Source: Tetrapyrgos nigripes (Eukaryota > Basidiomycota > Agaricomycetes > Agaricales > Campanellaceae). From it: a stretch of 64,000 nt of DNA. Each line of letters opens with the position of its first letter. Within the stretch, counting starts at the first letter, position 1. Positions 17,127 to 47,005 of this stretch are shown here, one piece after another. Position numbers and translations under genes: made by a program. The notes under the pieces are model-generated. The model searched no databases and had not been told where the DNA came from. It worked only from the letters and a program-made list of their open reading frames with translations. The stretch spans positions 166,700-230,699 of the forward strand of contig JAACJM010000132.1 in NCBI GenBank assembly GCA_013368315.1, read 5' to 3'.

Positions 17127-17435
17127 ATGTCACGCCGTGACACCAAACCATCACTCAACCCGCGCAATGCGCTCAGAGTCATTACTCGTCTCTTTCTCTT
17201 CGCTTTAGTCACTGGACTCGGGTTAGGAGGAGGATGGGGGGGGGGAATGGGGGGTAATCGGATAGCAGGAGCTAGCTTGGAAGTAAAAGAACGACCGTAT
17301 ACAGTTCACTGATCGCCGGATATTTGAACCCTCCTCCTCCCCAGTACCATTCCCATTCCCACTTCCTTCCACTACCCTCTTCCGGCTGCCTCCCTTCTAC
17401 AAAGACACGTCGCCGACGCTAACGACGTTTCTTGA
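17127..17435 (+). CDS. Putative 86-aa single-pass protein, two exons
   Basis: ATG 17127, intron 17297-17344 (GTATAC donor, CCCCAG acceptor), stop 17433-17435; 170 + 91 nt give 86 residues in frame. There is one hydrophobic helix (RLFLFALVTGLGLGG) followed by a Gly-rich stretch. No family recognised. The KDZ transposon starts only 63 bp downstream, so the gene may have been longer before that insertion. Confidence 0.3.
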
Positions 17436-17498
17436 CAATGAAGTACGCTTCCCCACGAGGCGAACGCGGTGGGTTATGGCTGTTGTGTGAGTTTCGTT

Positions 17499-17763
17499 CA
17501 CCTCATATGACCAAATATCCGGATATACACAAGCGGATAGGCGAGCGTTGATCCGCTTGTGTACAAGGTGATATCGCTTACCTCCCCCAAGTCCGTTAAA
17601 GCTGGGGGACTTGTAGGGAGCAGGAGGTGGGTAAGGGAGGGTACGAGTGCCGGTAGTACCGGGAGGCTGTCGGCAACATGTGGGGGCGGGTCTGAGCGCT
17701 ATCCCGTCGCTTCCCATGAGTCATACTGATGACTCATTGATGGCGACGCGTCATCCCGCCCCT
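17499..17763 (+). repeat. Left terminal inverted repeat of KDZ-1
   Basis: Starts CACCTCATATGACCAAATA. About 90 percent identical to the inverse of 39306-39570 without indels; most differences are transitions. It contains inner inverted repeats: ACAAGCGGAT/ATCCGCTTGT, CAAGTCC/GGACTTG, and paired TGAGTCAT/ATGACTCA motifs. Confidence 0.93.
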
Positions 17764-17863
17764 CTCGTCACTGTCCCGCCCTTCTACTGTACCATACATG
17801 TATAAATAGCACGCAAATACAATAAATTCGCAAAAAAAAAATACAGTGAGTCATTTAAGTCTA

Positions 17864-19998
17864 TCAAGACCTATCAAAGGCAACGTTGAGGACAGAGGTA
17901 GCAGTGTTACCTGCTTCTTCCTCCTCTTCCTCCCCCCCCTCCTCCTCCCACTCCTCATCTCCTTCTCCCTGTCTAATACTGTTCTCCGGTTGCATGAATT
18001 GGTGATCATTGCTGAATGCGGTCTGCCGACGTAATCCCTTCCCAGCTACAAAAAATCTGGTGTTTTGAGGGTCGAATCCTTGAAGCTTGTGGATTCCACG
18101 AAGCCGAGTACGGTGAAGGTTGTTAAAGCGTCCTCGTTCTAAACGATACATGTGTATCTGGTACGCAAGGGCTGGATCGGTGTGGTTCACATAGGACTCC
18201 ATGGCGGTCAAGAAGTCCCTTTCCTCCTTCATGTATGTGACTAGACGCTTAATCTCGACATGTAAGCGGTCCAGCTCATTCCACGCCCCCCATATTTTGA
18301 AGTACTGGTTAGCTAGAACTTGGTTTGCAGGTACCGCCCAGGGCTTATCCTGCACATCACTTCGAGTGTCTTTGAGGAAGTCGAGCTCCGATAGGTAGGT
18401 CTTCTCGACGACGTCTTCGTAGGAGAGGGGATCGCGAGGCGGGGTGAGTTTAGCGGTGGCAAGTTTGTACTGATAGACTGCCTCTTGGATGGATTTTGAC
18501 CGTGTCTTGAGGGCTTTTCCTAAGTGTCTTCTATTGTACTCGGATTAGTAACTTAAGCAATGTAAAAAATGATCACTCACCTGTCCCTGCCATATGCATC
18601 TTGGACAGCTCAAAGATCCTTGCCACTACCAGCCCTTCAAGCCTGTCCACCACCTTCTGATACTCATGCATCCTGGATATCTCCTCTGCTCTCTTCCACT
18701 CCTCTGAATCCTCCTTCCACCTCTCCTTGATATCCATCCTCTCCTCCAAGAAGTGGATCTCCCCCAACAGCTTGTCCTCCTTCTCTTGCTCCTGATGTAG
18801 TTTGTGTTCCACTCTCCAGGACTGATCCCTCTTGCTAGGGTCATAGGTTTGGAATAAAGCCCTAGCTGCTTCCATCCGGGGCACAGCATTCCTTCAACCT
18901 CACGAGCTTGTCGTAGAGGTCAATACCGTTCATATCCTCCTCTGCCATCCCCTCCTGCCTTGACTCCAAGTACTGCTTCTCCTCCTCCAGCCAACCGAAA
19001 ATTGTCATTGGGTCTGTGATACCCAAGTCCCGCATCCGTTGGTACACCTCTTACTGCATCTCCAAAATCCCAAGGGCCTGGTGATAGTTGTTATAGATAA
19101 ACTTGCTCACATTTGCATACGCTTCGAAGTTGTTGTGGTGGTACATCCATTCAGAGATCGTCTGTCTGCGGTGGAACTTGCTGGCGTGTCTTGTTGCTGC
19201 TGCAAGGGAATTGGACTGGGAGAATAGCCTCTCTATGACCTTGAGATCCTCTAGGCCAGCCCCACTGATGTAGGTCAAGAGAAAGCATAGCTGGCACCAC
19301 CGGTTATGCGCATGGCCATGAAGAGAACCAATGACAATCTTGAGGCCTTCGTCATTGGCCAACTCCTTCAGCGGACTCTTCTCCAGTGTCTTGTGGAACT
19401 GGCATCCAATGTCGTACCCGCATGCCATTCTCGATGGTGTATGAGGCTGTCCTCGTTGTTGACGGTCCTTACGAACAGCTGTTATAAAGCGATGAAGAAA
19501 CGAAAGCGCGTACTTTCGTCTGCATAAAGGTTAGTACATATTATCAAGTCACAGTGCACAAAACTCACCCTTCACCACTCTTGATCATATCTGCCAACCA
19601 CAGCACGAACATATGCCTACATGCACTGGCAAATATGCCAGTACAGTCATAAATGGCCTGCTCTGCCTCGGTATGGCTGGCCTTCATATTTGCCCACCTA
19701 TCCTCACACACCTTCTTCCCTTCCTTCAGATCCTTCTCCTTCTCCTTCTCTTCCACTGTCTCTTCCATGTATCCCGGAAGATTGGGCCAATTCTTCGGGT
19801 CCCAATTGTCCACTTCCTCCAGCGACAGGAAGTACTCATCATCTCCTGTCCTAGGATCTGGCCTTTCCCTCAATCTTCCTGGTGTTGCTGAGTCCCAAGC
19901 TGGATCTCGTCGCTCCACTCGTTTGAGGGAGTCATTGCCATCCATGGCACACATCATTCCCATTTCCAAGTTGTCCTCGCCCTCCAAAGGATACTGAC
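17864..19998 (-). pseudogene. KDZ transposase of KDZ-1, catalytic and C-terminal part
   Basis: This is the 3' part of a gene that starts at 32056; the gypsy element at 20004-31034 separates the two. Visible KDZ features: the CPAC..LEGE cysteine pair straddling the insertion, MDGNDSLKR, the CRHMFVLWLADMIKSGE block, catalytic-core GYDIGCQF and GSLHGHAHNR, GLEDLKVIERLFSQSN, and a long helical tail ending in an acidic stretch near 17900. An intron near 19514-19561 (GTGAGT, TACTAAC, GCAG) keeps the frame. Damage: TAA at 19049-19051, a frameshift near 18885, and a doubtful splice near 18580. The protein would cut and paste the element by binding its inverted repeats. Confidence 0.9.
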
Positions 19999-20003
19999 AT
20001 GCT

Positions 20004-20260
20004 TGTAGTAGTTAACTCTCCTTATTCACTCTCCTCACTCTCCTTACTCACATCTCCACTTTCCTCTACGCCTTAGACACTCCTCGACTCCTACTTCGAC
20101 TCCTACGCTCCTTACTGGTTCTATTTTCATCATAGTACTCCTTTTAGCATTAGTATTTATACTTAGGCTTTTCGTAGTATTTTCCTCAGTCAAATCAACT
20201 CTTATTTCATTCTAAAGTCGTTTCTAAGTCTACTAAAGGGATCTGTCCAAGTCCCTTACA
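20004..20260 (+). repeat. 5' LTR of gypsy copy B
   Basis: 257 bp, TG..CA ends, rich in CTCCTTACTC repeats. Confidence 0.95.
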
Positions 20261-20352
20261 GTTTGATTTGACTTCTTTTTTGAAAAAATCGGCTCAACTT
20301 ACTCTCTTTTACGCCCTCTCATCTCTCTCTCTCACACTACTCCTATTCCATC

Positions 20353-21651
20353 ATGTCCCAAAACTGGACATATTACAACACTCCAGCTCCCTCCTTCGAT
20401 CCCCACACCGGCGCGGATACCACTGCTCCCGCCGTTGATCCCAACACACCCGCCAATATCAGCTTTGCTGAGTACGTTGCCATTGGCGAGGCCATCAACG
20501 CCATCAAAGATCTACAGGATTGGCACACAGCCACCACCACCACTCTTGATGACATTCAAACTCGTTTGACCATCCAGGACACCATCCTACATAACATCCA
20601 GGACGCTCAAACCAATACCGCTATGTCCATTCGCAACATCGAAGTCATCGTGACTAACCTTACTCAACAACCCTCCACCCAATCACCGACTACCAGCGAT
20701 CAATCAGGTTCTACTTCGACTTCTACGTCTGATCCAATGGCGAACACTGCCTTCACGACATCCTCCTCCACTACCACGACATCTTCTTCTCAGAAACCCC
20801 CCACTTTCGAACTTCCGGACAAATTCAAAGGAAAGGCATCAGAGGTGGAATATTTTATCAGAGAAGTGAAAGATGCAATTGAGTTGTTGGGTTTATCTTT
20901 GCCTTCGGACAGGCAGAAGTGTATTTGGATGGCTAGGTTATTAGGAGATGGTTCACCAAAGCAATGGTATTTTTCCATCATGACTAGCGAACCGGAACTT
21001 CTCAATTCTTTTGACAACTTTATTCAACATTTTAAGGATCATTTCGGGGATAGTAATCTCGAGTATAACGCCGAGATGAAACTCAAGAAGCTCAAGCAAA
21101 CCGGCTCGGCTTCAGCATATGCCTCTCGATTCTCCGAATTGGTTGTTCACGTCGATTGGAGTGAATCCACGAAAATCAATCAATTCTACACTAATCTCAA
21201 AACCACCACCAAGGACTACATCAGCCAAAGGAAACATGATGAACGTCCGAAGAAGTTCCTTGACTACATAAAGTGGGTTATCAACATCGACAATTGTGTT
21301 CACGAACGTGAAGAAGAACGTAAAGAAGAATCCCCTTCCAAATCTTCTTTCTCCCCCTCCAAACCCGCAAAAACTTCGAATTCTCACACTACTCCTCCTT
21401 CTAACAACTCTACTTCGAACTCTAGCCTTCCTCCTGGTGAGCCCATGCAAGTGGATGCTACCAAGACAGGCAAACCACACCCGAAACTTTCGGACGAAGA
21501 AAAGAAGCGAAGGAAGGACTTAATTTTATGTGTTTACTGTGGTAAATGCGGCAAGGACATTGACAATTGTCCTAACAGATCTCCATATGTCGTCAAACGT
21601 ATGGAAGCGGCGAAAGCTGCTAGGGCTTCTTCCCAGTCGGGAAAAGCCTAA
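20353..21651 (+). CDS. gag: Gag polyprotein of gypsy copy B
   Basis: 432 residues from the first ATG after the LTR; forms the particle that packages element RNA. N-terminal about 80 residues, a coiled stretch around residues 50-105, a Ser/Thr-rich linker, the retrotransposon capsid domain (about residues 155-320, with KQWYFSIMTSEPELL and a KLKKLKQTG stretch), a Lys/Ser-rich linker and a Cys cluster CVYCGKCGKDIDNCP near the end that lacks the usual His. The frame is intact. It terminates at TAA after GGA AAA GCC, a context also present in copy A; pol is open in the -1 frame across this point. Confidence 0.9.
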   Translation: MSQNWTYYNTPAPSFDPHTGADTTAPAVDPNTPANISFAEYVAIGEAINAIKDLQDWHTATTTTLDDIQTRLTIQDTILHNIQDAQTNTAMSIRNIEVIVTNLTQQPSTQSPTTSDQSGSTSTSTSDPMANTAFTTSSSTTTTSSSQKPPTFELPDKFKGKASEVEYFIREVKDAIELLGLSLPSDRQKCIWMARLLGDGSPKQWYFSIMTSEPELLNSFDNFIQHFKDHFGDSNLEYNAEMKLKKLKQTGSASAYASRFSELVVHVDWSESTKINQFYTNLKTTTKDYISQRKHDERPKKFLDYIKWVINIDNCVHEREEERKEESPSKSSFSPSKPAKTSNSHTTPPSNNSTSNSSLPPGEPMQVDATKTGKPHPKLSDEEKKRRKDLILCVYCGKCGKDIDNCPNRSPYVVKRMEAAKAARASSQSGKA

Positions 21652-24600
21652 CCGGTCGCTCTACTTGTACTCCAGAGTCGCCGGTTGGTGAAGGAGTACA
21701 CCACTATTGCTTACCCACTCAATCGGGTCCGGCGACTAAGTTCGAAAGAACTATGGATGGCACCTGGCGTCTAATTTCTATGTATGCTCCTACTTACATC
21801 TTTTCCAATTCTCCTTTTTCTTCAAATCATTTTATCATTTCAGTCTCTCTTCATTTTCCTGATCGTCCACCAATTCGTACTCATGCTTTGATTGATTCCA
21901 GTGCGACTGTTTCTTGTATCTCAGATTCTTTTTCATCTCGACATTCACTTTCTCGACGTCTAAAGAATGTACCTGTTCCTGTGATGGTGGTTGATAACCG
22001 TCCTATTGCTTCTGGTCTTATCACCCAAGAAGTTATTTCTAGAATTTGTGTAGGATCTCATAATGAGGTTCTTCCTCTTGCTGTTGTTTCGGTATTTTTT
22101 CCTATCATTCTTGGTTTGGATTGGCTACGTCATCATAATCCTGATATTGATTGGCACTCGAATTCTCTTTCTCTGCATTGTTGTGGCTTGACTCCAGTGT
22201 CCAGTACTACTGTTTATGCCAAAGGCTTTGGTCTCTCGCATTCTCAGTCTGTTAATTCTACTCGCGTTGGACTAGGCTTCGGTCTACTCTCTTCGCCTAT
22301 CTTCTCTACTATTCAAGTTCCTTCTTCTGATTGTACTTCTGATTCTTCGAATTGTACTTCTACGATTTCTTCTTTAGATTCTATTTCTTCTTTACCTACT
22401 CGATCTTTTCTTTCCGCGTTTGTTCATCATAACGGTTATGGAAATTCTACATCTACCAAATTCACCGTTCCTGTGCAAGCGTCGTTTAGCGTTCCTGACA
22501 ACCCGGACATTAAGATCCTCAATTCTCGACGGTTCTTTCAGCAGTCCAAGGGTTGCCAAGTTGCTTATTTGCGGTTTTACGACTCTACTTCTCCACACTT
22601 CATCAATTCCTTCTCCCCACCCTCTTCCCCTGATTCCAAACCACCTCCTCCTGAACCACCCCCGCCCATTGGTCACAATCCACTCACCGATCCCGATGAA
22701 GATTTTTCCGAATACGTTCCTCCACACTACCGATCTTTCCTCGACTCTGTCTTTAAAGTTTCTGATTTCGACCACCTACCTGATCACCGTCATAACGACA
22801 TCGAAATCGAGTTAGAGGAAGGAAAAACGCCACCGTTTGCGAGAATGTATCGTCTTACCGAGCAGGAAAGGCAGGCAACTGCCGAGTACGTTCACAACAA
22901 CCTTTGTCGTGGCCACATACGGGCTTCTTCATCTTCTGCTGGGGCACCGATTCTATTCATTCAGAAAAAGACTGGAGAAATCCGTCTTTGCGTCGACTAC
23001 CGCGGACTTAACGCCATCACCAAGAAAAATCGCTATCCACTTCCTCTCGTTGATGATCTTATCGACCGTGTACGCAGTTGTACTGTATTCTCCATCATCG
23101 ACTTGAAATCCGCTTATGCTCATCTTCGCGTACGTGAAGGTGACGAGTGGAAAACAGCATTTCGCACACATCTTGGTCTTTTCGAACATCTCATCGTTCC
23201 GTATGGTCTTTCCAACGCTCCCGCCGCCTGGCATCATTCATTCAGGAAGTGTTATCCAATGTCATCGATTTTTGCTGTGTCATCTACTTGGACGATATCT
23301 TGGTGTTTTCTCGATCTCAAGAGGAACATCAGGAACATGTTAGAATGGTCCTTGATCGTCTTGCCAAAGCTTCTTTGTATGCCAACCCCAAGAAATGCGA
23401 ATTTGACTGCTCCGAGGTTGAGTTCCTTGGCTACATTGTTAGCGCCGATGGACTCAAGATGAATCCAAAAAAGTTATCAACGATCGTCGACTGGCCCGAG
23501 CCTACAAATCTCAAACAACTTCAATCATTTCTCGGCTTCACCAATTTCTACCGACGCTTTATTGACGATTATTCTCGAATTGTCATTCCACTCACAGCTC
23601 TCACTCGTAAATCCCCATCTTTCTATTTCAACGACTCCGCAAAATCCGCTTTCAATTTACTTAAACATCTATTCACTACTGCTCCCGTTCTCCAGCATTT
23701 TCAGCCACATCTTCCAATCAGCCTCTCCACTGACGCCTCCGACTTCGCTATCTCCTCCGTACTCCAACAACCTGACTCTAACGGCCACCTTCACCCCGTT
23801 GCCTTCTATTCTCGGAAGTTAGCACCATCAGAAATCAATTACGATATACATGACAAGGAGCTTCTCGCCATCATTGACTCATTCAAAGAATTCCGGCATT
23901 GGCTCTCAGGCTCTCCCTCTCCCATCAAGGTTATCTGCGACCACAAAAACCTCGAATACTTCATGCATTCTCAACTCCTCAACCGACGCAGCTGCGTATC
24001 GTTCTTTCTTCCTACAACACTTTTCCCCTTTTCCATGATGATCTGGCTTCTCCGCCATCACATTCTCTGAGCTCCCTTTCCACCATTGATGCTTTTTCAA
24101 CTATTACTTTGGATAATTCTCATTTCTTGGATCAATTCCTTTTGGCTTTCAGGGAAGATATTGAGTGGCAAAAAGCAATCACAACTGGTGATTCATCCTT
24201 CAAACTGCACAATGATTTAGTTTTCCATAACAATCGACTCTACGTTCCTCCTTCCCTTCGGTCCACCATCGTCTCCTCTCGTCACGACAGCGTCATCTCA
24301 GGACACCCAGGCCGTACACGCACTTTCGCACTCGTTTCATGCGATTACTCATGGCCAGGGATGACTACGTATATCTGACGTTACGTTCAAGCTTGTGATA
24401 CGTGTTCCCGCATCAAAGCTCCTCGACACAAACCCTATGGTCTCCTCCAACCTCTCTCCATTCCTAACCGTCCTTGGCAAGCCATTACCATGGATTTTAT
24501 CATCAAACTCCCAGAATCCCATGGATACGACTCTATTCTAGTCGTTTGCGATAGGTTGACGCATGCTGCGCACTTCATTCCCTGTCGTGAATCGATGACC

Positions 24601-25788
24601 GCATCCAAACTCGCATGGCTCTTTCTGGATCGTATTTTCCGTCTTCATGGTATTCCTCAATCCATAGTCTCAGACTGTGGTTCACTATTCGTCTCGAACT
24701 TTTGGACAGCCTTACTCGGACATCTAAACATCGACTCCAAAACCTCCACCGCTTATCACGCGCAAACTGATGGTCTTACAGAGAGGACAAACCAGACTCT
24801 GGAAACATACCTCTGTGCCTATGTCTCCTACCAACAGGACGACTGGATCGACTACCTACCTCTTGCCGAATTCGCTTTTAATAACCACGAAAACACTTCC
24901 ACAAAACATACCCCATTCTTTGCCAACCTTGGATTCCACCTGACATTCGAACCAACTCTCACTTCCGTTTCTACTGTTCCCACCACTGATGATCTCGCCA
25001 AACGTCTACATATCATTCACTCCGAGCTTAAAGCAGAATTAGCACATGCTCAGGAACTGCAAGCTAAATATTACGACAAATCTCACGCCGCTCAACCTAC
25101 ACTAAAAGAAGGGCAACTTGTATGGCTTTTACATCACAATATTTGTTCCACCAGACCTTCGGACAAACTCGATCATCGTTGCCTCGGTCCCTTTCCTATT
25201 ATCAAACCCATCCACCAACGAGCATTCCTCCTACAACTTCCCTCTTACCTTTCACACCTATATCCAGTATTCCACGTTTCCCTCCTTGAACCTTATCATG
25301 ATCCTTCAGAATTCCACGAGCGCTCCGACCCTGTACCTTTAGAACTCCCTGAGGACTCTCCTATCATTCACTCTATCCACGACATGCGAAAAATTGAACA
25401 ACGTTTTGATCACCTCTGCCACTTCAAGGACTCATCAGACGACGACAATACATGGATTCCTCTTACTGACATCTCTTCCGACTACAATCATCTTATTGAG
25501 CACTTCCACCATACTCATTTGCACGCTCCACGACCTCACAAACTCATTATTTCCAAATCACATAACGCTGAATCACTTATTAACGACTCTACCTCTACTC
25601 AGACTCCATCTGTTCCCATCACTCCTTCTACTTCCGTTTCAGTTCCAAATTTCGTTCCACGACCCCCTACCCCAGTTCAAAAATCCATTAATCCCAAATC
25701 CAACTACACTCTGCCTGTTCATGCCGTTACACGCTCTGGTAGAAAGATTACCCCTCCTGATAGATTAGATCCTATTATTAAAAGGTAG
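21641..25788 (+). pseudogene. pol: Pol polyprotein of gypsy copy B, two frameshifts and one stop
   Basis: Order: protease (about 21890, DSSAT in place of DSGAT), Pro-rich linker, RT (about 22850-23310; YLDDILVF near 23285), RNase H (about 23690-24000), integrase zinc finger (about 24270-24410, CDTC), integrase core (Asp in TMDFI about 24490; SDCGSLF; Glu in GLTERTNQ) and a C-terminal chromodomain-like region (PVFHVSLLEPYH, TWIPLTDI). Breaks relative to copy A and to the family: a 1-base insertion near 23233 just before the YLDD box, a frameshift near 24000 at the end of RNase H, and TGA 24376-24378 where Arg is expected before RYVQACDTC. The frame from 24490 to 25788 is open. Confidence 0.9.
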
Positions 25789-26038
25789 TTTTTTGTCCCC
25801 GGGTAGTGGCAACTTTTCCTGCGACTCTGGTTTTTCCCACTGGCACTGGGGGCGAGCTCATGGGAAGCAGGCCCTCGGCTCCCAGGCAGGAAGCCTCATG
25901 GGAAGCAGACTGGACAGCTCCCACCGGTAATCTAAACTATTGAATCCGAAGGGCCCGAGTAGCTAGGCCCAAGTACTTCGTGTAACCTTAGCAGGGGCTG
26001 AATCCAGGATTGCACTGCAATCCGCAGTGTACCTTATA

Positions 26039-26314
26039 CTGTACTATCTCAATCAATTTGCGACGGGGTTGTGACTGTGACCCTGTCTCGCGAATATTTT
26101 TTTCGTGATTCTAGCTGAGTGACCTGTGACAGAGGAAATTTTTCGCGAATTTCGCGAAATTTTGACCTGTTTATAGCCGTTTTTGGTAGATTTTTAGTGA
26201 CATTTCGGTTGTCCCTTTCGCGAATGGGCCTCTGTGACCACGGACAGCTCAGGAAAATTCGCGAATTTTTGGGGGCCGTGACGCGTGACTCGCGAATTGA
26301 TTGAAATAGTACAG
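26039..26314. mobile_element. Short TA-flanked MITE (Tc1/mariner-like), 276 bp
   Basis: Inverted ends CTGTACTATYTCAATCAATT over about 25 bp, flanked by TA on both sides (26037-26038, 26315-26316). The interior repeats ATTCGCGAAT-type palindromes. No coding capacity. Assignment to Tc1/mariner rests on the TA duplication only. Confidence 0.7.
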
Positions 26315-26441
26315 TATACTTATATAGAAAACACTGTAGTAGTACGACAGATATAGAACAAAGACTAGACTCGCAAGCCAGTCGGTTGGTCCGCAAGCTA
26401 AGCGAGGAAGTGACAGCAGAGCTCGAATTATGGCTTGCTTC

Positions 26442-28108
26442 TAGTGTTGCGCCGGGTCGAGTTAGAGTGGAGGCCGAGCGCTCGGCTAATTGAGCTCGAG
26501 CTGGGCTCGAGCTCACTGACAAATCCTTCCGCATTAGGAAGGATCCCCCTATTCTCTGTCATTCCTCAACATATCCACCGTCTGCAGAAGTTTAGGTCTA
26601 CTTCTAAGCTTCGGTATGTATGTAATCTTTGTTATATAGTCTATGGGGGTCTACTGGCAAAAAATCACGAGTTGCACAAGCAATACTATAGTACATATGT
26701 ACTAGTAAATAGATATAGATACTAGACTAGTAGACTATATTATCGTGATGGCAGTAGTTACACAATGTGAAAAGCATTATACATTAGATCCTGTAGTAGA
26801 AATACTGTACGAAGCATTGATTAGTCGTGCAATGTCCTGAATTTGCCCATTCATCAGCATATCCTGCAACTTCTCTTGCGGCATGTCCGTCATAGTGACA
26901 TTTTCGGTCTCATCCATCGTACAAGTCCCATCAGATTTCTCTTCACCCAGCTCAGAATTTTTAGCAACCCAACTCTTCGTGAAATCTAATCGATCTTCAC
27001 GATGCATAGCTTTCAAGATCTGAAGCACTTCCATGAAGACCAGATCAAGTTGAGACCGTCGATCTGTGTCAGTCTCTTTGCTTGAGGTTGGCTTGACCTT
27101 GTGAATTTGACGTGGGGCAGTTTTGTCGATGACAGGAACAGTATCACTGTCCATAGGGGTGATAAACCACCAAACGTCGGTTGCTGTTGCCTTCGGATTT
27201 TCGCATTTGGCTTTAACAGATTTGAATATGTTTGATTCGAGAGCAGGATGATTGAGCTTGATCGAAAAAATGTCCGGGTCCAAATCAGCATAACCAGATA
27301 TAGGACCTGCACTGGTGACCGAAGCAGTGGCAGTGGGAGTAATAGAAGCGGCGCCACGAGAATCATTTTCCTTTTGACTAGTACGAAGACGGACATTACG
27401 AGTTGGTTGATCATTATTAGAATCGGCATTGCGTTTTCGAGTTTGCCTTGTATTTCGTGCAGTGGACTGGGTTAGTGGAGTGGGTGTTTGGACAGTATAA
27501 GGAAAACCACTGGGGTATGTAGTAGGGCTGTATGGTGTTTGGGGAGCTTGAACCCATGTAGGAACATGGGAGTGAGCAATGTAGGGGTAGTATCCATACT
27601 GCACAGGCTGATTGGGACGCTGGGGAGTAGAGGGCACTGCAACTTGGAATGCAGTAGGCTCATTTTGGGCAGTAGGACATGAATTTGAAGTTGATGTGGA
27701 AGTTGAAGGTGGATAGTATGTCGGATAAGGTATATGACCATATGGTGGATGGTAAGACCCATTCATCGAGAGAAAGTCAGAAAGGATTGGAAAAAAAGGC
27801 TAAAAGCCCCCAAAAGCTCAAGCTTAAATATCAGAACCGTTGTCAAGCTAGCTAAAAGCTCATATATTATCACCGAATTTGAAAATATGAAACAGATGGG
27901 CAATATCAGTAGGTACAGGTACAGAACGAGGGCAGAGAGGTGGATGAGGAGGAGAAGATGCTTTCAGCCCCTATCTGAACCAGTGGAATGGTCCCACGTC
28001 ATCATCTAATGCCAGATTGATGTGGTTGATGGGACCTTCCATATATGGGGGCGGGCTCGACTCGAGCTCAGCCCATGTGAAGGGTGGACTCGACCCAGCG
28101 CAACACTA
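26442..28108 (-). mobile_element. hAT-type element, 1,667 bp, with a 329-aa frame
   Basis: Ends TAGTGTTGCGCCGGGTCGAGT and, inverted, TAGTGTTGCGCTGGGTCGAGT; exact 8-bp duplication cttgcttc (26434-26441, 28109-28116). The TAGTG start and 8-bp duplication fit hAT. It contains one long minus-strand frame but no hAT dimerisation/catalytic region, so it is non-autonomous. The 404-bp element at 54114-54517 has closely related ends. Confidence 0.88.
26777..27766 (-). CDS. Unknown 329-aa protein in the hAT-type element
   Basis: Intact ATG-to-stop frame. The N-terminal half is Pro/Tyr/Thr/Gln-rich (PYPTYYPPSTSTS), followed by a basic stretch (TRQTRKRN) that could be a nuclear signal. Then comes the most structured part, about residues 165-205, with HPALESNIFKSVKAKC and TATDVWWFITP; this resembles in outline the start of a hAT BED-type region but has no paired Cys/His. 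The C-terminus is acidic. An open frame of this length in a young insertion could be a captured gene or a transposase N-terminal remnant. Function not assignable. Confidence 0.5.
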   Translation of the reverse strand: MNGSYHPPYGHIPYPTYYPPSTSTSTSNSCPTAQNEPTAFQVAVPSTPQRPNQPVQYGYYPYIAHSHVPTWVQAPQTPYSPTTYPSGFPYTVQTPTPLTQSTARNTRQTRKRNADSNNDQPTRNVRLRTSQKENDSRGAASITPTATASVTSAGPISGYADLDPDIFSIKLNHPALESNIFKSVKAKCENPKATATDVWWFITPMDSDTVPVIDKTAPRQIHKVKPTSSKETDTDRRSQLDLVFMEVLQILKAMHREDRLDFTKSWVAKNSELGEEKSDGTCTMDETENVTMTDMPQEKLQDMLMNGQIQDIARLINASYSISTTGSNV

Positions 28109-28429
28109 CTTGCTTCCCAACCGACTGGTATTTTTGGGCGTCGTTTTGGGAGCTTGGCGTGCGAATTTGAACTTGTAAATATTTTCGTTCGCTGCGCATC
28201 CAGAAAGCAGCGAGAGCGCTGCAGACGCAGACATTTGCTTACAATCTGAAGAGAGTCATTTCGGAGGAAGACGTGTATTAGAATAATGTACTGTAGTTGC
28301 AAATAAGACACCCAATGGTACTGTTTCCGAGTATATGTGCATTGTGGAGAATTAAGACAAAATTTACACTGAAGGGTGAGTATGAGAGGGTGTATAGTAG
28401 CCATTGTAAGGAGCTGATGGATTAGGGTG

Positions 28430-29014
28430 TTGAGGGTACCTCTGCTCATCTCTTCTCCAGACGAGAGCTTGTCAATAATAACCTATCTGACAGCTCTCCT
28501 AGCAGCTTGGCTTCATCTCAAGGGTAGTGCCAGTTGTACCGCTACCAATGTGGTTCTGAATGGCATTGCCTTCATTCTTGCAACTGCCTTCCACATCATC
28601 TCAGTATTGCTACAAACTTGTGGTTATGATATCAATATACAGGTCTCCACTCCTCAAAACATTCATTCTACTTACAGCTCTCTACAAATCAAACCAACAA
28701 TCATTCGCACTGTCTGCTGTCCCAAGTGCTTCACACTCTATCCCCACATGGCAAACCTTCCTGATCATTGTCTTTAGAAGCAAGGAGTATATCAGAGGAA
28801 TCCCTGTGGAACACCTTTGAAAACCACAAGGAGAACTGGAAGAGGAGAAATTACTGTCCCTAGGCGCTTGTATAGCACCCAGTGTTTCAGGTCATGGCTC
28901 GAGTTCTTCTTGAAACGTCCAGGGATGGAGGAGATGATCAACAGGTCCTACAATGTCCTGCCCTCTCCTGATGGAAATGTGAGGGATACCTGGCAAATTC
29001 TCCGTCGACGATGA
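28430..29014 (+). pseudogene. Plavaka-type (CACTA) transposase fragment
   Basis: Read across frames, an apparent CCPKCFTLYPH with DHC is followed by CGTPL, PRRLYSTQCFRSW and FFLKRPGMEEMI. This order (Cys pair, CG.PL, then .SW...L.RPG.E) is that of the N-terminal part of Plavaka/Tnp2-like transposases of basidiomycetes. At least one frameshift (about 28780) and loss of everything downstream (catalytic core) make it a remnant of the protein that once mobilised this family. Confidence 0.6.
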
Positions 29015-30319
29015 ACAATTTGGTCTAGACGATGATGAAGTGTTCTGCGTAGACGGAGGTTTTCTCTTAGATGACATTGGGAATGAACAGAGGGACAATA
29101 CTGAACTTGTCACTTAGGGTATGGAGATTTTTATGAGTCGGGGAATCAGTAGTGGCACAAAGGGGTTTTTTTTGTCCAATCCTTTGACTTCTGCCCTATG
29201 TTTGATAAACAACAGCATGCCATTATACCTTCAAATTTTTGAATCAAGGTCAAACTGCCCATTGTATCACTGGTCTTTGCTGTGATTTTCTTTCAACATA
29301 CCCATGTTCGGATTCCGACCTCGATTAAGCGTGTGAGTGTTATTCTGTGAAGGTGGAGGTGGTGGAGGTGGGTTAGGCATGTTTGTAGGCATTCCATACA
29401 CTTTGGTTTGGGACTCTCAAGCGAGCTGGATGAAGTTGACTCGGAGTTCAGTTTTGGTTGCGAGCGGGATAAACTCGACTTGGAGGTTGGCTTAGGTTGC
29501 AAGCTGGATGGTGTCGACTTGGATGTCCTTTCTCTCCCCAACTTTTGTCCCCTTCCTGTATATTTTTTGAAAGGATAATCAAACCACTTACCTTAGCCTT
29601 TCTTTGTTCGCATCCTTAGCCTTTCTTCGCTTTTATACCCTTTGAAAATCAAGAACTTATGGAGACTGCCAAGGCTATTGGTCTGATTTCCTCATTAATC
29701 ATTTCTCCTGGCTTGTACGAAGTACTGCACTCAGGATTCTGGCTGGAAAATTAAAGCCTCGGTCGTTACGAGGTATGCTGCCTGTTTCTCTTTTCCTGAA
29801 AAGCTACATCAATATTGTTTACAGGACCCTCCTGGTTGGCAAGAGATCCTCAAGTACTTTTGTGATTCTGAATGTCGATCATACATATTCCAATACAGCT
29901 AGCAAGGTCATCAAACGGTGATCTACTGTCTTCACGTGCAATTCCATTCTTCACGCCAAAAAAAGACTGCATTCGTTATCGAGCACAATTTCATCATGGC
30001 CACCTACCTTACCGATCGTGTCATTGTCTTTGAGGGTCAGCCTGCAGCAATCAGGATTTGTTCTGGATTTTATCAGATTTTTATTCGCGACTTTGCTGAT
30101 TTAATTGCATCACACCACAAGTCACCAACACATCACGAGTTACGGTCACGTCACGAGCTACTGTCACGTCACGAGTTACAGTCACATGTGACGTTCTGGG
30201 ATCCAAGCCACAGGAGGACATAGGGGATAGTTTCGGTTGGCGTCGCAAAGGTTGTTAGTCGGAACTAAGGTATTATCTCGAATCGATGTTTTCCGTTTGT
30301 TTGAGTGAAATGTGGCGGG
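29015..30319. other. Right arm of the CACTA element, no gene recognised
   Basis: Contains a Ser-rich minus-strand frame (29293-29541) that is partly conserved in the second copy at 60089, and a short run of TCACGAGTTAC/TCACGTCACGAG repeats near 30130-30190. No recognised domain; conservation between copies is explained by common origin of the element. Confidence 0.5.
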
Positions 30320-30347
30320 AAGTCCTCTCGTCGAGACGAGAGGACTT
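30320..30347. repeat. Perfect 13-bp hairpin in the CACTA right arm
   Basis: Arms AAGTCCTCTCGTC (30320-30332) and its exact inverse (30335-30347) around a 2-nt loop. The same hairpin is at 59340-59367 in the second copy with a different loop, so the stem is preserved. Confidence 0.7.
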
Positions 30348-30763
30348 GCACGCATTTGATAGTTCCCTAAAGTTGTTCCTTTGTTTTTCCTGTTTTAGCT
30401 GTCGACGCTTGCTTTCATTGTTGTTGTACATACATATATATCTCGTGTTTGTATTCTTTTACCATTGTATTCTTTGAAAGAAAACTATCTTGGATCTCAA
30501 AATCCGTTGCTACGCATCGGTTAGTTTCTATTATTGGAATCTAAGTACATCTTGAGTATCCTAAGAGTATCCTAAGTTCGGATCTACTTGTTTGATTACC
30601 GGCTGGTGTGATGGTGAAGTCTTGGTCCGCTTCCCGTGCGGGAGCCAGACCTCTGCTTCCCATGAGCTTGCCCCCAGTGTGGGTTTTCCGGGCCAGGTTT
30701 TTAATGTCTCCCTACTTTGGTTATTTGTAGTACTTAGTTATAAATTTCCATTGTTTTCTAGCT

Positions 30764-30777
30764 TAAAGAGGGGATAA
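30764..30777 (+). promoter_or_regulatory. Polypurine tract of gypsy copy B
   Basis: AAAGAGGGGATAA directly before the 3' LTR, matching copy A. Confidence 0.7.
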
Positions 30778-31034
30778 TGTAGTAGTTAACTCTCCTTATT
30801 CACTCTCCTCACTCTCCTTACTCACATCTCCACTTTCCTCTACACCTTAGACACTCCTCGACTCCTACTTCGACTCCTACGCTCCTTACTGGTTCTATTT
30901 TCGTCATAGTACTCCTTTTAGCATTAGTATTTATACTTAGGCTTTTCGTAGTATTTTCCTCAGTCAAATCAACTCTTATTTCATTCTAAAGTCGTTTCTA
31001 AGTCTACTAAAGGGATCTGTCCAAGTCCCTTACA
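30778..31034 (+). repeat. 3' LTR of gypsy copy B
   Basis: 257 bp; 255 of 257 positions match the 5' LTR. Confidence 0.95.
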
Positions 31035-31039
31035 ATGCT

Positions 31040-32056: not shown

Positions 32057-32214
32057 AGTAGGATGCTAGACTTGGAGTCTTAGAAGAAACAAAACCGAAT
32101 GCGATGCATTGCGCTTTATGTGATCTATTATCACGTGCGCACTGAAGTCGCCATTGAATAGATCAACAAAAGCTTAAGTAGATCGCTTGTCCTCCAACCA
32201 GCACCTCAAGGACC

Positions 32215-33834
32215 ATGCATTTTGACAGTAAGTGATTCAACTCCGGCTATCCCTCTTATTTCTGCACGTCTGGACCCAGGAGTTTGCAGCAACAACCCTG
32301 GGGCAGCAGAAAGTGGTCCAGACGCATTGGACGTGTCTTGTCTCATTGTCACGCAACAAAATGCTGACTTGCTCCCTTTGCAGATATGCGTCGTCTTCGA
32401 GGAGGCAAAGAATTCGCTGGCTGTGATGTCATGCAAGAACACGACGAAATTGTATGATATGCTGAATACATCCAACTCAACCTCAACGCTACCAACCTCT
32501 ACCAAACTGCCTACATAGCACAGCAACTTTTCGAGGACGAGAATCCTGAAGCAACTGACAAGCCAGTTCCCTTGGCCATCCCTACCGTTGACCTCCATAG
32601 GTGACTGATCGCTCCGAACTTGTGAAACCCCCTCCTCTTAAACTTCCGTCCAAACCCGAACGCGTTCCCTACCAACCCGATTACACATTGTTGCCCAAAC
32701 AGTGCAAGAACCTCAAATCACATGTGAGGAGGGCCCCCATCCACTTTGACCAGAGGCACGTGAAACAAGTCCAGGCTCAAAATAGCAACAAAGCCTGTGC
32801 AATTGTCAAAGCTACCATCCTCGTCCGCATCTGAGCTAATTTTAGTAGGCTGCTTCAGAGTAAGGTGGGAGTTTGGACTGGCACCAAGGCGCATTGCAAT
32901 GAGGAGATGTATTTGTTGGTGGATTTGAAGGCAATGGGATTCAGAGTCATTGAATGGGAGGGAGAGTATGTGCTGAAGGTCTTAATACTTTATTTTTTTC
33001 TAATCTTCTATTTTCTAGCACTAACAAGGTCATTGAAGATGAGAAGCACACCCCGCTTATTCTCATGGCAGCTGCTCCCAAGAGCCCAGACTGGTTCAAC
33101 AAGGTCATTCCCGGTTTGCTTCTACTCATTTGAACTGGCCCGCTGATCTGCATCGCCGAGGCAAGCACAAGTCGGTTCCTCTGACTGACAGTAAGTCATT
33201 TGGCAGTGGCCAATCTCAACCAGCCAACTTTGCCCATACGGTTGGTAACCGTAAGGTTCTGGACAAGCTGCGTTCTGACACCAACATCAAACGCGTTGCT
33301 GGTCTCATTGATCGTGCGTTTGCATACTTTTTCTGGCTCTTTCTCTATCTAACGCCACTTTCAGAATACTATAAGACTTTCTTCCCTGATCTGTACAACC
33401 TCTACCACAATGTGTCGGAATGCCTTCATGAGCACAACCCGAAGCTCAAGAAGATGTTCGACAATTCCATCTTTGCTGCCACCAACATCAACTTTGACTG
33501 TACAGTCGCTTTCCGCCATTTCGATCATCTCAATCTCCTCTTTGGACTTTGTGCCATCCTCCCTACTGGCACGTATCAGTACAAAGAGGGTGGGCACCTG
33601 GTTATTTGGCAGCTTGGCATTGTTCTTGAGTTTCCACCAGGGACGGTCATTTTCCTCCCTTCTGCTCTACTCGAGCACTGCAACTCCATCATTGGCCCTG
33701 GGGAGACCCGCTTGTTAATCACCTTCTATTCGGCCTCTGGACTTTTCCGCTGGTGTCACAATGGGAACATGAGTGATAAGGAGTTTAAGGCAAGGGCATT
33801 GAAGAGGCAGAGGAAGATTTGGGACGAGCACTGA
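32215..33834 (+). pseudogene. TET/JBP-type 2-oxoglutarate/Fe(II) dioxygenase, damaged
   Basis: TET/JBP enzymes oxidise 5-methylpyrimidines in DNA. The C-terminal catalytic domain is clear from about 33230: EYYKTFFPDLYN-like helix, the Fe(II) motif H-x-D at 33517-33525 (RHFDHLN), GGHLVIWQLG, FPPGTVIFLPSALLEH with the second His at 33676-33678, and the 2-oxoglutarate-binding Arg at 33709-33711 (GETRLLITFY), then GLFRWCHNG. Introns: 33314-33364 (GTGCGT..TTTCAG, kept in frame) and about 32968-33018. Upstream exons (about 32380-33120) contain TGA 32455-32457, TGA near 32832 and a frameshift near 33115, so the N-terminal half is probably broken, although an unrecognised intron could explain one stop. 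Transcribed away from the transposase. Basidiomycete TET/JBP genes are known cargo of KDZ elements. Confidence 0.85.
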
Positions 33835-34358
33835 AAGAATATCTGGAAATTGGGATTGGATTTACTTTGCAGCGGCCTACCTTCAATTTCTAGTACTTAG
33901 CTTACCCCTGTATAACTTTCTTGGACTCTTTCTTGGACTATTTCTGAATACATTGCTCCTTTATCGGTAATCGTAAAATATATCTCAGTAAAATAAGAGG
34001 AAGACACTCGAGGAGAGGTCATTTTGAAGCTAGGTACATTTGTATCGCGAACTCGGAAAACAAAATCAGTTACTTTGAAGAGCATTTTTATACTCAAGCA
34101 GATATTAGAATGCTTCCAAAAAATCGAACAATACAAATGTATGCATACTAATACTAAGTATCAACTTCTATGGAAACCTTAGTGTGAGTGAGGAAGCATA
34201 ATTAAACATTAGTGCTTATGGCGAACTCGGAAAACATGAATGAAAGGTCAAAACAAATCTTACATGTAATTCTCACCTCTCTTTCCTCCTTTCTTCGACC
34301 ATCCCTCACTTCAACTTTGCTTATTCATCAAGGGAGCCATATCATCCGAGTCCTAGGG
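33835..34358. other. Intergenic in KDZ-1, no gene seen
   Basis: AT-rich, contains GAACTCGGAAAACA-type short direct repeats (about 34047 and 34222). Likely 3' end of the dioxygenase gene and promoter of the next. Confidence 0.5.
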
Positions 34359-34964: not shown

Positions 34965-35140
34965 TAGCAGTCAGAATCTCATACAAGTCAGCTCGTACTA
35001 TTCATCATTTACTTACTAGTACTACATATGATTTGCCATTCTTTCAGTCTTCAAATAGAGCAAGTGAAATAAAATTTCTATCCAAAAGTACAACCAAAAA
35101 AGTATATAAGTTGAAGTAAATACAAGATACCCAGCTCAGC

Positions 35141-36154
35141 TCATTTCCTCAGCTTCACATGTACAAGTCCCTCCTTTTCCCACTGAGTGAACAAGGCCAA
35201 AGCAGCCCCTTTTCCCCCAATAACACGACGAACATCTCCCCCACCATACCGTAAACCATCCATTATGAGTCCCTTCCGACTAGAATAAACGAAAGGCTTG
35301 GGGCCAGTGACCACAATGAAATGTTGCTCTGCCAACAAATCGAAATCCTGGTAAAGTCTACGAGCTTCATCCTCATCCAGGTATCCTTTGATGATGTGCT
35401 CATGACAATCCACATTGTATATGGTCTTTGCCTGCTGGTACAACTCGAAGATACCAGAACAAAAAACTCCAGTCCCCAGGTCTTCCCCAGCATAAATGAC
35501 GTACCACAGGAATCGACTCCCAGGCTGCAGCTTGATGGATGGTGTGGAAGGAGAGGTTGGTAGATGAATGGTCGTCTGAGAAGGGAGGGTATGCGGACGG
35601 GAAGGAGACGACATGACAGGTTGCCATGAGGGAGTGGAAGGCACAGGGGTTAAGGTACAGTGTTTGGTGGGCATTGAGGGTGGAGTCTGAGGCGAACAAC
35701 CAGAAAACGAATCATTCATACCATCTATGAAAGTTTTAGTAAGACTGCCTAGTTCTAGAGGTAAAGAAGAATTACTCACCAACCATCACCTGCATGTTGT
35801 GAAACCTGCGATTGACATCCTCCAGCTGTTCGGAGACCTGTTGTTTGCGGCGTTGGTACTCTTCATGAGCTGCTTGAAGGCAGGCTTCAGAGGCTTGACG
35901 AGCTTCTTCAGCCTGTTGCAAGTCTATGAATGATAAGTTAGATTAGCAATGTGATTGTAGAAATGAAAGTAGACATTACACACCAGCTTGACTCTGGGAC
36001 AGACCGACACTCTCTCGCAATCCCTCCTTGATGAGCGCCAATCTCTTCAGCTTCCTAGCAGAAAATGGCCGGGTAGTTAAGTTCTCTGAACCTATCACAC
36101 AAAACATGAAGGGAACCTGTTAAAGAAGAGAAAGCGTATGACTTACCGGTCATG
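35141..36154 (-). CDS. Coiled-coil protein with a viroplasmin/RNase H1-N-like domain, intact
   Basis: Four exons on the minus strand: 36154-36148, 36091-35984, 35923-35780, 35724-35141 (843 nt, 280 residues, no stop). All three introns are 55-60 nt with GTAAGT/GTGTGT/GTGAGT donors and TAG acceptors. Residues about 10-90 form a charged coiled coil (LQQAEEARQASEACLQ). A Pro/Ser/Thr linker follows. The C-terminal part (about 155-205) has FLWYVIYAGEDLGTGVF then an Asp/Glu-rich helix EDEARRLY, matching in outline the caulimovirus viroplasmin/RNase H1 N-terminal fold that binds RNA:DNA hybrids. No RNase H catalytic domain. Domain call is by eye. It is one of few undamaged genes in KDZ-1; an analogous gene is at 48454-49488. 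Confidence 0.7.
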
Positions 36155-36269
36155 GTTGATGTTGCAGTAAGCAAACTAGCATTCATGTGAATCAGAAACA
36201 CGCATTTGTTTATTTGTATATTCCAGATTTTTTGTACTTTGTGTACTGGTTTTCTGGCTGGTGCCCAGG

Positions 36270-39217
36270 ATGTATAACCAGAATTTCCCTCAGCAATTTC
36301 CTCAGGAGCCATTCCTAAATGCCTCTGACCCATTCAATTATGAATCCGTGAATGCGACTGGCTGTCTGAATGGTCAATACAGTCAGACGTCGTCACCAAA
36401 CTCAATAGACTCAATGGGTGCTGTCAATCAACTTCGACTGGCATTTGCCCTTGCTTCTTTTCGAACTCATATCCTCAGCGTCAGTGCATTGTTTTTGTTG
36501 CGGTTCTATGCTCTGACTCTGTGTTTGTTTTATAGGACAAGTACATGGACATGGTGTCGTGAGGAATGACTTGACTTCGGGCTTGTCGCTCGGAGGGAAC
36601 CACAACTTTAATCCAATAGGTACATGTTCCTGTTTTTTTTTTTTTTTCTCAAAAAAAAACAATGTTAAGTTAATTGCATTTTGTAGTCCATTCTTCTAGT
36701 GCTATGCCAATGAGAACGGAGCCTTGCTTCCAAAATGCGTATGCAAGACCTTCCAGCACGGTTCCCTCTTCAAACTCGAACTCCTACAGTCTGTCGCAAC
36801 GTCGGGCTGGGTTGGATGTGTCTCGAAATGGTACAGGTATCCAGGTATGTGGCTGGTATCCTGTTATAATGTGAAAACTTTAGAACTACAATACCAACAG
36901 TGGAATATTTCCACAAAGCCATTCGCCGCACCCTACTTCAAGAGTGCATGATATATCGTTTGGTCCCAACAGCCAGACACCTCAGCAGGGTAGCAGCTTC
37001 TATTATCCTGCTCGACCCATTTTCACTCAAATTCCTCAGACTCACTGGCAAGGTCCGGTTCAGGACATAGTCAATTGGTCTGGTGGTTTCTCTAACCCGA
37101 TGTGTCCCTCTTCCTATCCCAACTGCCAACACCAACTGACAGCCTGTTCACAGCAGCATCCTCAAGCTCTTACTTGGACGAAGACTGTGGTCAGTGACAG
37201 TATTGACACGTCTGCCCTACTGTGTCCAGTCCCAATGCCAAAACAACCTGAACCTGCTCAAGCTCCCTCATCTGCACCTACTCCGTCATTATTTATTCCA
37301 TCAAGAACTGGGCTGGAATCATCTGGTGTAGTTGCCCTTATTGCAGCAGCTCTGGACACTGGGCTCACCTCGGAGATTTCAGGATCTGCACCGGTGACAA
37401 GGATGACGACACCCTCGACTAGTACACAAGCAACCTCTTCGACAATGACAACAACGCCTGCTCCCTTCTCCCCAACTACCATCACTCTTCCTGCCTCTAC
37501 CATTGCGACTACTTCAGCCTCGTCTTCAGTAACATCCTCCACCATCACTCGTCCTTCCTCTGGGACTACTGCCTCGATGTCGCCTTCAATATTGACAGTT
37601 GTCACTGCTCAGCAGTCATTGGAGGAAGAATTGCCATTTGAGTCCACAACATTGGAGCAGGGGACCTGGTCCATCCCTAACATTGATGAAGGGATTTCTG
37701 TCTGTGCTCCCCAGCTTGGTGATGCTGAAAGACGTCTCAAGGCCCAGACAGCTGACACTGGCTTGTGAGATGCAGTGGCAGCATTGCTGGCTGGACAAAC
37801 AGCGGAAATGGAGCATCTATCGGAACAGTTCAATGTTTCTTTAGACCATATCCAGAAGCTTATGGGTCTGCACCGTAACTTCACAGACCAGAAGGCACCT
37901 AGCGCATATAATGCTGGTGTATACATTAAAGCCAGGGAATTAAACAGGGGTATGTGTTTATAATTGACTGTTACTTTTCCATACATAACTAACTGGAATA
38001 TTGTATTTGTTAGACCAATCTAGAGACAACAAATACAAACTCCATGAGATACATCAGCTGCTGCATGAAGACCAGGACATGATGAAGGAACTGAACAACC
38101 CGAAGTGAAAGAAGGTGGTGGAGTGGGAGAAGGAGCTGGTCCAGGCCCGCTCAGATGCTTTTATTGGTACCAGGGGACCTAGAAAGCAGTCCAAGCAGAT
38201 GGCCGATAAGTATCTGGTACTATGTTATGGCGAGGTGAGTGTCCATTTCCTTTTTGTTCATCAGGGAGTTGACATTACCTTTCTTTAGGCAGCCCTTCTC
38301 AGCACACACACTGGTGCGTTCACTTGGGGGTTTGTATGCCAAAGCAACACGAAATGCGAGGTCGACCCAGCGTTCTTTGGTTATGGTCCTATGGAAGATT
38401 TCCTTATGGACCTGTGCCAGATGAACTCCTTCGAGTTTGTCAAGGCAGCCCAAGCTCATGCAATCACCCTTAACTCCAGATGACAAGGACTCTCTGGTGA
38501 CAAGATGAAGAAGGCCATTGCAAGTGTGATTGTAAAAGGACTTCGTAAGTATGTCTTTACTTTTGTATGTATACTATGCTACAGTACTAATAAGCTGAAA
38601 GGTGATATTACCAGGAACCCGAAGCTCAACATGGAATACAAGAACTACAAGACCAAGATTGTCAAGAAATACTGTGTTGTCCTCACCCCTTGGCCAGCCA
38701 ATGTCCTGTTCGATAATGTGCATGGAATGAAGGAGGAGGAATGGAAGGAGATGTATAATTTGCTTTGGAGTGGAACATTAAAGTGGAGGTCATTGACAGC
38801 TCGGGAGTATACAGAGGAGATGGGCCAGCTTGAGAAGGAGATTGAGAAGGGTGTGGTGGAGCTACCAGGCCAGAAGAAGACACGGTCTGACAAGGGAGGG
38901 ACCCACAACACGGCAAGGAAGGATACCACCACCACCACTCCACAACGACTACAGCCACAGGCAATAAGAGGAAGGGTCCCAACAGTAGTGGAAAAAGACC
39001 TGGCAAATGATCCAGATTGTCCAAGCCAAAGAGTGTCGAGTTTATTGACAACAGCGACAAGGAGAACAACAACGGTGACAACAGCGATGACAATGAAGAC
39101 GACGAGGAAGAGGAGGAGGAGGAGGAGGCAGAGGTTCTGAGCAAGGAGGAGTTGGACGAGTTGTTTGACGATCCCAATGCCAACGTTGACAACAATGACA
39201 ATGAAGACAACAATTAG
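36270..39217 (+). pseudogene. Large KDZ-associated cargo protein, four TGA stops
   Basis: Start ATG 36270 (MYNQNFPQQFPQEPFLN). Introns near 36418-36533, 36621-36687, 36845-36942, 37951-38013, 38235-38288 and 38547-38600. N-terminal half is Gln/Ser/Thr/Pro-rich. The C-terminal half contains FNVSLDHIQKLMG, KAPSAYNAGVYIKA, HTGAFTWGFV, a WPANVLF block and MYNLLWSGTLKW, the order of a large Agaricomycete-only family that I know as frequent near KDZ transposases, of unknown role. It ends in an acidic tail (DNEDDEEEEEEEEAE). Breaks: TGA 37766-37768, 38106-38108, 38481-38483 and 39008-39010, plus a frameshift near 38920. Three of the TGA codons fit Arg CGA by context. Confidence 0.7.
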
Positions 39218-39305
39218 CATATGTATAGTTTTGTTTATTAAAAAATATTTTTTTCTTCAATTTACGATGTATTTAAGACATTTTATTACATGTATACTAC
39301 GCTAA

Positions 39306-39570
39306 AGGGGTGGGATGACGCGTTGGCAGCAATGAGTCATTGGTATGACTCATGGGAAGGGGCGGGATAGTGCCCAGACCCGTCCCCACATGTACCCGAC
39401 AGTCTCCCAGTACTACCAGCACCCGTACCCTCCCCTACCTACCTCCTGCTCCCTACAAGTCCCCCAGCTTTAACAGACTTGGGGGAGGTAAGCGATATCA
39501 CCTTGTACACAAGCGGATCAATGCTCGCCTATCGGCTTGTGTATATCTGGGTATTTGGTCATATGAGGTG
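39306..39570 (-). repeat. Right terminal inverted repeat of KDZ-1
   Basis: Exact length match (265 bp) to 17499-17763 in inverse orientation; followed by the duplication gtttcatt (39571-39578). Confidence 0.93.
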
Positions 39571-39578
39571 GTTTCATT

Positions 39579-46979: not shown

Positions 46980-47005
46980 ACCTTAGGGCAAAAACGTTCA
47001 CCCTG

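Follow-up and report, generated by a model that had tools for sequence, protein, structure and literature searches.

A decayed KDZ transposon of Tetrapyrgos nigripes with a recurring transposase, TET and cargo gene layout, and a TET block common to Plavaka-type elements

We analyzed a stretch of 64,000 nucleotides from the agaric fungus Tetrapyrgos nigripes (GenBank assembly GCA_013368315.1, contig JAACJM010000132.1, positions 166,700 to 230,699), referred to here as the window, and compared it with the genome from which it comes (98.5 Mb in 587 contigs, numbered here C1 onwards, the window being C129:166700-230699). Positions 17499-39570 of the window very probably represent a single insertion of a KDZ DNA transposon of the cut-and-paste kind. 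Its ends, target duplication, gene order, nested long terminal repeat (LTR) element and decay are established, as is the recurrence of its transposase, TET/JBP dioxygenase (TET) and cargo genes. The main interest lies in this recurring gene layout and in an exchange of the TET gene with Plavaka elements, six loci of which carry its closest DNA relatives. The features of the element are listed below in window coordinates, with strand and basis.

17491..17498, no strand: left target site duplication gtttcgtt; present as a single copy at the empty site
17499..17763, + strand: left terminal inverted repeat, first bases CACCTCATATGACC; repeat comparison
17864..20003, − strand: KDZ transposase gene, 3' part; PF18758 and homology to the transposase on C108
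31035..32057, − strand: KDZ transposase gene, 5' part, with an in-frame stop in exon 1; homology to the transposase on C108
32124..33931, + strand: block common with six Plavaka-type loci at 79-82% nucleotide identity, containing the TET gene; DNA comparison
32215..33834, + strand: TET/JBP dioxygenase gene with uncertain start; conserved HxD, H and R, structure of homologue P0005
34359..34965, + strand: decayed small basic gene with approximate limits; related sequences at C252 (91%) and, next to TET, at C18 (73%)
35141..36153, − strand: 'viro' gene, limits approximate, viroplasmin label unproven; relatives in C108, C151 and C296
36214..39217, + strand: decayed large cargo gene with approximate limits; related sequences at 14 further loci and in Lentinula and Marasmius
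39306..39570, − strand: right terminal inverted repeat; repeat comparison
39571..39578, no strand: right target site duplication gtttcatt, with one substitution; empty site comparison

The two terminal inverted repeats, 265 nucleotides each, are identical at 241/265 positions with no indels, and the 8-mers flanking them (gtttcgtt and gtttcatt) agree at 7 of 8. A genome search with both outer flanks returned one site, at about 27 kb of the contig that holds the window, where parts of both match at roughly 90%. In an alignment with the two flanks joined, the site reads ..TGGCTGTTGTGTGA, a single gtttcgtt and the right flank directly after, with nothing between; read across the junction it is ...TGGCTGTTGTGTGAGTTTCGTTTCCATTCTCC..., and on the right side the match runs for about 200 bases. 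We read it as a paralogous empty site lying in a duplicated copy of the element flanks, which fixes both ends of the element; since it carries a single gtttcgtt, the right-hand gtttcatt is the mutated copy. What counts against this reading is the left flank, which aligns without gaps over just 22 bases including the 8-mer, beyond which the alignment takes insertions and is poor over about window 17330-17455 before the match becomes good again. The repeats, the 8-bp duplication and the empty site together supply the defined ends and the 7-8 bp target duplication by which KDZ elements are recognized. An earlier note on this DNA, made from the window alone, had described the equal-length, indel-free repeats and the gtttcgtt/gtttcatt duplication and had proposed looking for an empty site; repeats and duplication both hold, and the search yielded the junction of left flank, one gtttcgtt and right flank, though at a paralogous site.

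On C118 and C278, in the same flanks, lies a 3-kb element with these termini; its 8-bp duplication, AGGGTCCG on both sides, is perfect. C118/C278 (L015/L016) and C21/C93 (L019/L020) are pairs of contigs holding the same element in the same flanks, so the assembly may include both haplotypes or recent duplicates. Dating the window element by the divergence of its repeats was tried and rejected: the left arm of a sibling copy matches the left arm of the window at 233/238 positions and the right arm at 217/238, and much of the difference between the arms therefore predates the window insertion.

Two matches to PF18758, at 19051-19530 and 19565-20011, identify the transposase gene (E 2.1e-36 and 1.7e-23; 126.1 and 83.9 bits, cut-off 26.6), whose 3' part persists as open frames at 17864-18544, 18573-18893, 19051-19530 and 19565-20003, and which is broken by the LTR insertion and the in-frame stop. 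The TET gene matches PF12851 weakly (E 0.001, 18.7 bits, under the Pfam cut-off of 34.9), as do its homologues P0004 and P0005, likewise under the cut-off, and a search of PDB sequences with TET and its profile gave no match to CcTet, the TET enzyme of Coprinopsis cinerea. The predicted structure of P0005, in whose alignment the window protein is a row, settles the assignment of 32215-33834 as a TET/JBP dioxygenase gene: for this model (predicted local distance difference test, pLDDT, 89.3) CcTet, NgTET1 and TET2 rank first. The predicted iron triad HxD...H and the arginine are present as H159, D161, H212 and R223 in frame 33043-33834. The gene is disabled by in-frame stops near its start, beginning at 32455, and by the loss of 19 bp near 33118, which puts it out of frame against an open copy.

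The cargo gene has in-frame stops at 37766 and 38106, and the small basic gene carries stops as judged by eye. Judging by these reading frames, the window copy is dead, with transposase, TET and cargo all disrupted. The small gene occurs at three loci in the genome, one of them beside TET at C18. At least two database proteins are homologous to the cargo protein, from Lentinula raphanica (53%) and Marasmius sp. (32%), among the 7977 candidates with most shared words that were scored. The cargo homologues P0001 and P0002 match no Pfam family over its cut-off. The earlier note had named all five genes. For the transposase it was right, both domain matches lying above the cut-off; for TET it was right on the strength of fold and catalytic residues, not of PF12851; and the small and cargo genes are confirmed by their relatives at other loci, although both are broken in the window. 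Its 'viroplasmin-like' label for 35141-36153 was not confirmed. No match to PF01693 was found in this gene at E up to 1, and comparison by hhalign with three RNase H1/viroplasmin-type domains gave a probability of 1.2% (0.5% for a TET-profile control), so we rejected the label; a structure model of P0003, made for the same question, was poor (pLDDT 48).

Relatives in the same genome repeat the layout of the window element. The relative on C108 spans 9,240 bp between its own terminal inverted repeats (CACCTGATATTACC) and holds transposase (−), viro (−) and cargo (+), without TET; a decayed relative on C296 holds transposase (−), TET (+), viro (−) and cargo (+), its TET lacking the HxD stretch. 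The sibling on C252 follows the window order (transposase, 5' part of TET, small gene, start of viro, first part of cargo) in pieces 86-96% identical to the window, with one end shortened and with deletions corresponding to window 32770-34036 (the TET catalytic part), 35016-35750 (most of viro) and 37332-39418 (the rest of cargo). Genome-wide, the cargo gene occurs at 15 loci, the window included, and at 11/15 a listed KDZ gene lies within 10 kb, against 0.44 expected; the match at the window is a neighbor's KDZ gene, leaving 10. At 10/10 of these loci the KDZ gene is on the opposite strand and reads outward, as does the window's own; the C49 and C342 loci resemble copies of one element. TET lies within 8 kb of cargo at 9/15 loci, in all nine upstream and on the same strand.

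Because transposase, TET and cargo recur with the same order and strands, these observations support one co-inherited mobile set, in which TET is optional because 6/15 cargo loci have none within 8 kb. These TET-less cargo loci also stand among several points that weigh against a fixed unit. C108 and C252 show no target duplication; 52/76 TET loci have no KDZ gene within 10 kb among the matches listed; and the 24 TET-KDZ pairs within 8 kb divide into 6 divergent ones, like the window pair, 13 same-strand and 5 convergent. The KDZ list comprises the best 150 of 173 matches, with 150 of 345 candidates scored, and absence from it is weak evidence; the TET locus counts use 91/106 TET rows, the 15 weakest omitted. 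Selection, measured as the ratio of nonsynonymous to synonymous divergence (Ka/Ks), is also uneven, with 0.62 for the N-terminal part of cargo between C108 and C151, and 0.24-0.92 for transposase pieces between window and sibling. The single mobile unit of the earlier note holds, since the set recurs and its ends are fixed, with the corrections that TET is optional and the window copy is left without a working transposase or TET.

It is also conceivable that the repeats belong to a larger or different composite and that TET, the small gene, viro and cargo are host or unrelated sequence trapped between transposon ends, an explanation to which we give very little credence. It would fit elements of 3 kb (C118/C278) and 2 kb (C21/C93), which have related terminal repeats but a content unmatched to the window element. 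The earlier note had singled out repeats bounding unrelated content as evidence against its claim, and such repeats do exist; they are harmless, since non-autonomous derivatives behave in this way. The same gene order in diverged copies (C108 without TET, C296 and partly C252) and at cargo loci genome-wide argues against trapping, as do Ka/Ks values below 1 between copies: for C108 against C296, 0.20 in the transposase, 0.40 in viro and 0.39 and 0.31 in cargo; for viro, 0.41 between C108 and C151 and 0.45 between C108 and the window. For transposase and cargo, synonymous sites are saturated in comparison with the window.

Apart from membership of this set, the TET gene has a second association. 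At the DNA level, the nearest relatives of the TET block lie outside KDZ elements, at six Plavaka-type loci, L011 and L024-L028 (on C252, C466, C35, C107, C269 and C360). Outside 32124-33931 these loci match the window solely in low-complexity pieces of 36-54 bases, and they gave no match to the C108 KDZ transposase or to cargo; among themselves they resemble each other across most of the 10 kb compared, at about 80-99%. On C466, L046:3759-4499 encodes a Plavaka transposase domain (PF18759, 63.1 bits against a cut-off of 26.3) divergent from TET, and the Plavaka identity of the other loci rests on DNA match. DNA from this C466 transposase region is found at a distance of 5.3-7.6 kb from TET on C466, C252, C35, C107, C375 and C360, and is fragmented at C269. 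The list of Plavaka matches is incomplete, missing the C466 Plavaka gene itself, and absence from it is weak evidence; termini of the TET-bearing Plavaka family were not found in the DNA stretches examined. One TET-bearing Plavaka copy contains an inserted Tc1/mariner element (L011:405-2035; DDE_3 and HTH_Tnp_Tc3_2, with 212-bp inverted ends).

Two Plavaka copies without TET show where the block sits. On C44 the backbone runs up to L024:3572, is followed by 74 bases, and resumes from L024:7459; on C25 it runs up to L024:3507, is followed by 86 bases and resumes at the same position, with one further insertion outside. The stretch L024 3573-7458, missing from both, holds TET (5585-7427) and a duplicate, largely collinear, of backbone sequence found from about 7706 onward, and the match to the KDZ element stops at L024:7427, 31 bases before the backbone border. 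A backbone repeat at L024:9340-9506 recurs on contigs C35, C15, C184, C343 and C139, each time no more than about 1.25 kb from the contig start, so it may be subtelomeric. In the TET catalytic part, the window and five Plavaka copies differ with Ka/Ks 0.13-0.19 (Ks 0.42-0.53).

From these junctions and alignments, Plavaka appears to have gained the TET block, probably from a KDZ element. We consider it likely that TET, a long-standing module of KDZ elements, jumped to Plavaka as one block beside duplicated backbone, with its catalytic part under strong purifying selection; the middle part of TET tells against uniform constraint, selection there being weaker (Ka/Ks 0.41-0.61). The direction is taken from the TET-less Plavaka copies and from the spread of TET among diverged cargo loci. 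A midpoint-rooted tree of 45 rows, which places the window TET and six Plavaka TETs in one clade (support 100/99), gives none; it omits 1/38 TET homologues (alignment A2 omits 17/38 and A3 3/38), its L011 row is partial and its C296 row lacks the HxD stretch.

Movement of the block the opposite way, from Plavaka into the lineage of the window KDZ element, would produce the same clade in a tree without direction, but we think it unlikely: in C44 and C25 the block is missing at nearly the same point, and at 9/15 cargo loci TET stands upstream of cargo on the same strand, the other eight TETs being 39-61% identical to that of the window. That TET was ancestral in both KDZ and Plavaka, and that the TET-less Plavaka copies lost it, strikes us as improbable. 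Just two TET-less junctions were read, and a single shared deletion could account for both; the identity of about 80% is nevertheless limited to the TET gene, and with no KDZ transposase or cargo match in the Plavaka loci an exchange is required anyway. We therefore retain transfer from KDZ to Plavaka as the preferred reading.

The presumed benefit of TET genes to the transposons that carry them is escape from DNA methylation. In intact copies of the element, we propose, the KDZ transposase would bind the 265-bp repeats and move the element, the TET enzyme, by its predicted activity, would oxidize methylated bases on the element's own DNA and loosen its silencing, and the cargo protein may aid transposition or expression. 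At the window, the flanks would have been duplicated first, the insertion would have come next, and decay and splitting by the LTR element would have followed. TET would act as a separable module, with nearly the same gene in Plavaka elements, most likely copied from a KDZ element. If this is true, TET is an anti-silencing module tradable among rival transposons of one agaric genome, the HxD type included. Related TETs in two unrelated element types, together with TET-less receivers, allow one to ask whether gain of TET raises copy number or lowers methylation, and the recurring layout of transposase, TET and cargo points to a third, unnamed gene kept by these elements.

The KDZ element spans 22,072 bp (17499-39570) because an 11,031-bp gypsy/Ty3 LTR element sits within its transposase gene; subtracting that element and 5 bp leaves 11,036 bp net. 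The earlier note had spoken of 11 kb while giving coordinates 22 kb apart, and removal of 20004-31034 reconciles the two. The following features lie at this insertion, the two retroelement and transposon bodies being outside the KDZ element proper.

19999..20003, second copy 31035-31039, no strand: target duplication made by the nested LTR element, ATGCT (5 bp); perfect
20004..31034, + strand: nested gypsy/Ty3 LTR retrotransposon; LTRs, frames and sibling continuity
25844..30679, no strand: CACTA-like element within the LTR element; CACTGG..CCAGTG, 51-bp inverted ends (78%), 3-bp duplication TGG

The LTRs (20004-20260 and 30778-31034; 257 bp, TG..CA ends) are identical at 255/257 positions; the retrotransposon is young. 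Its frames encode gag, protease, reverse transcriptase, RNase H, integrase and a chromodomain, and the sibling on C252 is uninterrupted across the insertion point. The CACTA-like element is about 4.8 kb long, and its 340-aa open frame (26777-27799, −) has no Pfam match.

Beyond the element, a diverged repeat array (40970-41760) adjoins it, and the neighboring 40821-40957 has relatives at many loci. A second KDZ element occupies about 43500-52000 of the window, with a KDZ domain at 44748-45179 (−) and a divergent, intron-split gene with a viroplasmin-type motif (48673-48850, +; PF01693 E 2.09); ends were not found for it. Across the genome, 18/27 loci matching PF01693 have a listed KDZ gene no more than 5 kb away, against 0.42 expected, a count inflated because 9/18 are copies of one family (a single 17-residue match, E 8.31) and the list extends to E 10; above the Pfam cut-off, 4/8 loci are near a listed KDZ gene, neighbors counted.

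Iyer et al. 2014 reportedly described TET-bearing KDZ transposons of Agaricomycetes. Terminal inverted repeats are present in most published KDZ cases. TET-bearing Kyakuja and Zisupton elements, both KDZ transposons, are known in Agaricomycetes (Kojima 2025, PMC12730594), and the window element is a new, dead copy of this published kind. It resembles them in combining a KDZ transposase and a TET/JBP gene in one agaric element, and has an 8-bp duplication as described for Zisupton. The 7-bp duplications without terminal repeats reported for two Kyakuja families of L. bicolor (PMC12730594) differ from its 8 bp and long repeats, and it does not follow that Kyakuja pattern. The parts of that paper covered here mention no third gene in KDZ elements, whereas the window element carries cargo. 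Our literature search returned no paper on a TET common to KDZ and Plavaka and none on the cargo gene, parts of which the Kojima supplement and Iyer et al. 2014 may hold.

TET exchange as such is already known, because the same paper reports transfer of PE-type TETs in A. bisporus and among rust elements; for AG-type TETs it gives no transfer between superfamilies. TET-bearing Plavaka elements are listed there in A. bisporus and Gymnopus confluens under the PE type (HxE), not the AG type (PMC12730594), whereas the Plavaka TETs described here are HxD and near relatives of the KDZ TET. Since the window TET has HxD, it is not of Kojima's PE type. CcTet (PDB 7vpn, 7w5p, 8jkk) is about 16% identical to it and has Gly331 and Asp337 (Gly/Ser331 with Asp337 being the AG-type residues) where the window TET, by ungapped count at +5 and +11 from the first His, has N and C. 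In size and ends, the closest likeness by description is KDZ1 of Cryptococcus neoformans, caught inserting, with about 11 kb, 241-bp terminal inverted repeats, 8-bp duplications and a transposase with CxC1 (PMC12810828). The window element likewise has about 11 kb, long repeats, 8-bp duplications and a KDZ transposase; its C108 relative gave matches to CxC clusters that stay under the cut-off (CxC3 E 0.00057, CxC1 E 0.0025), and none was seen in the window. It differs in being dead where KDZ1 is mobile, and in its TET gene, which the passages on KDZ1 in PMC12810828 do not name for that element.
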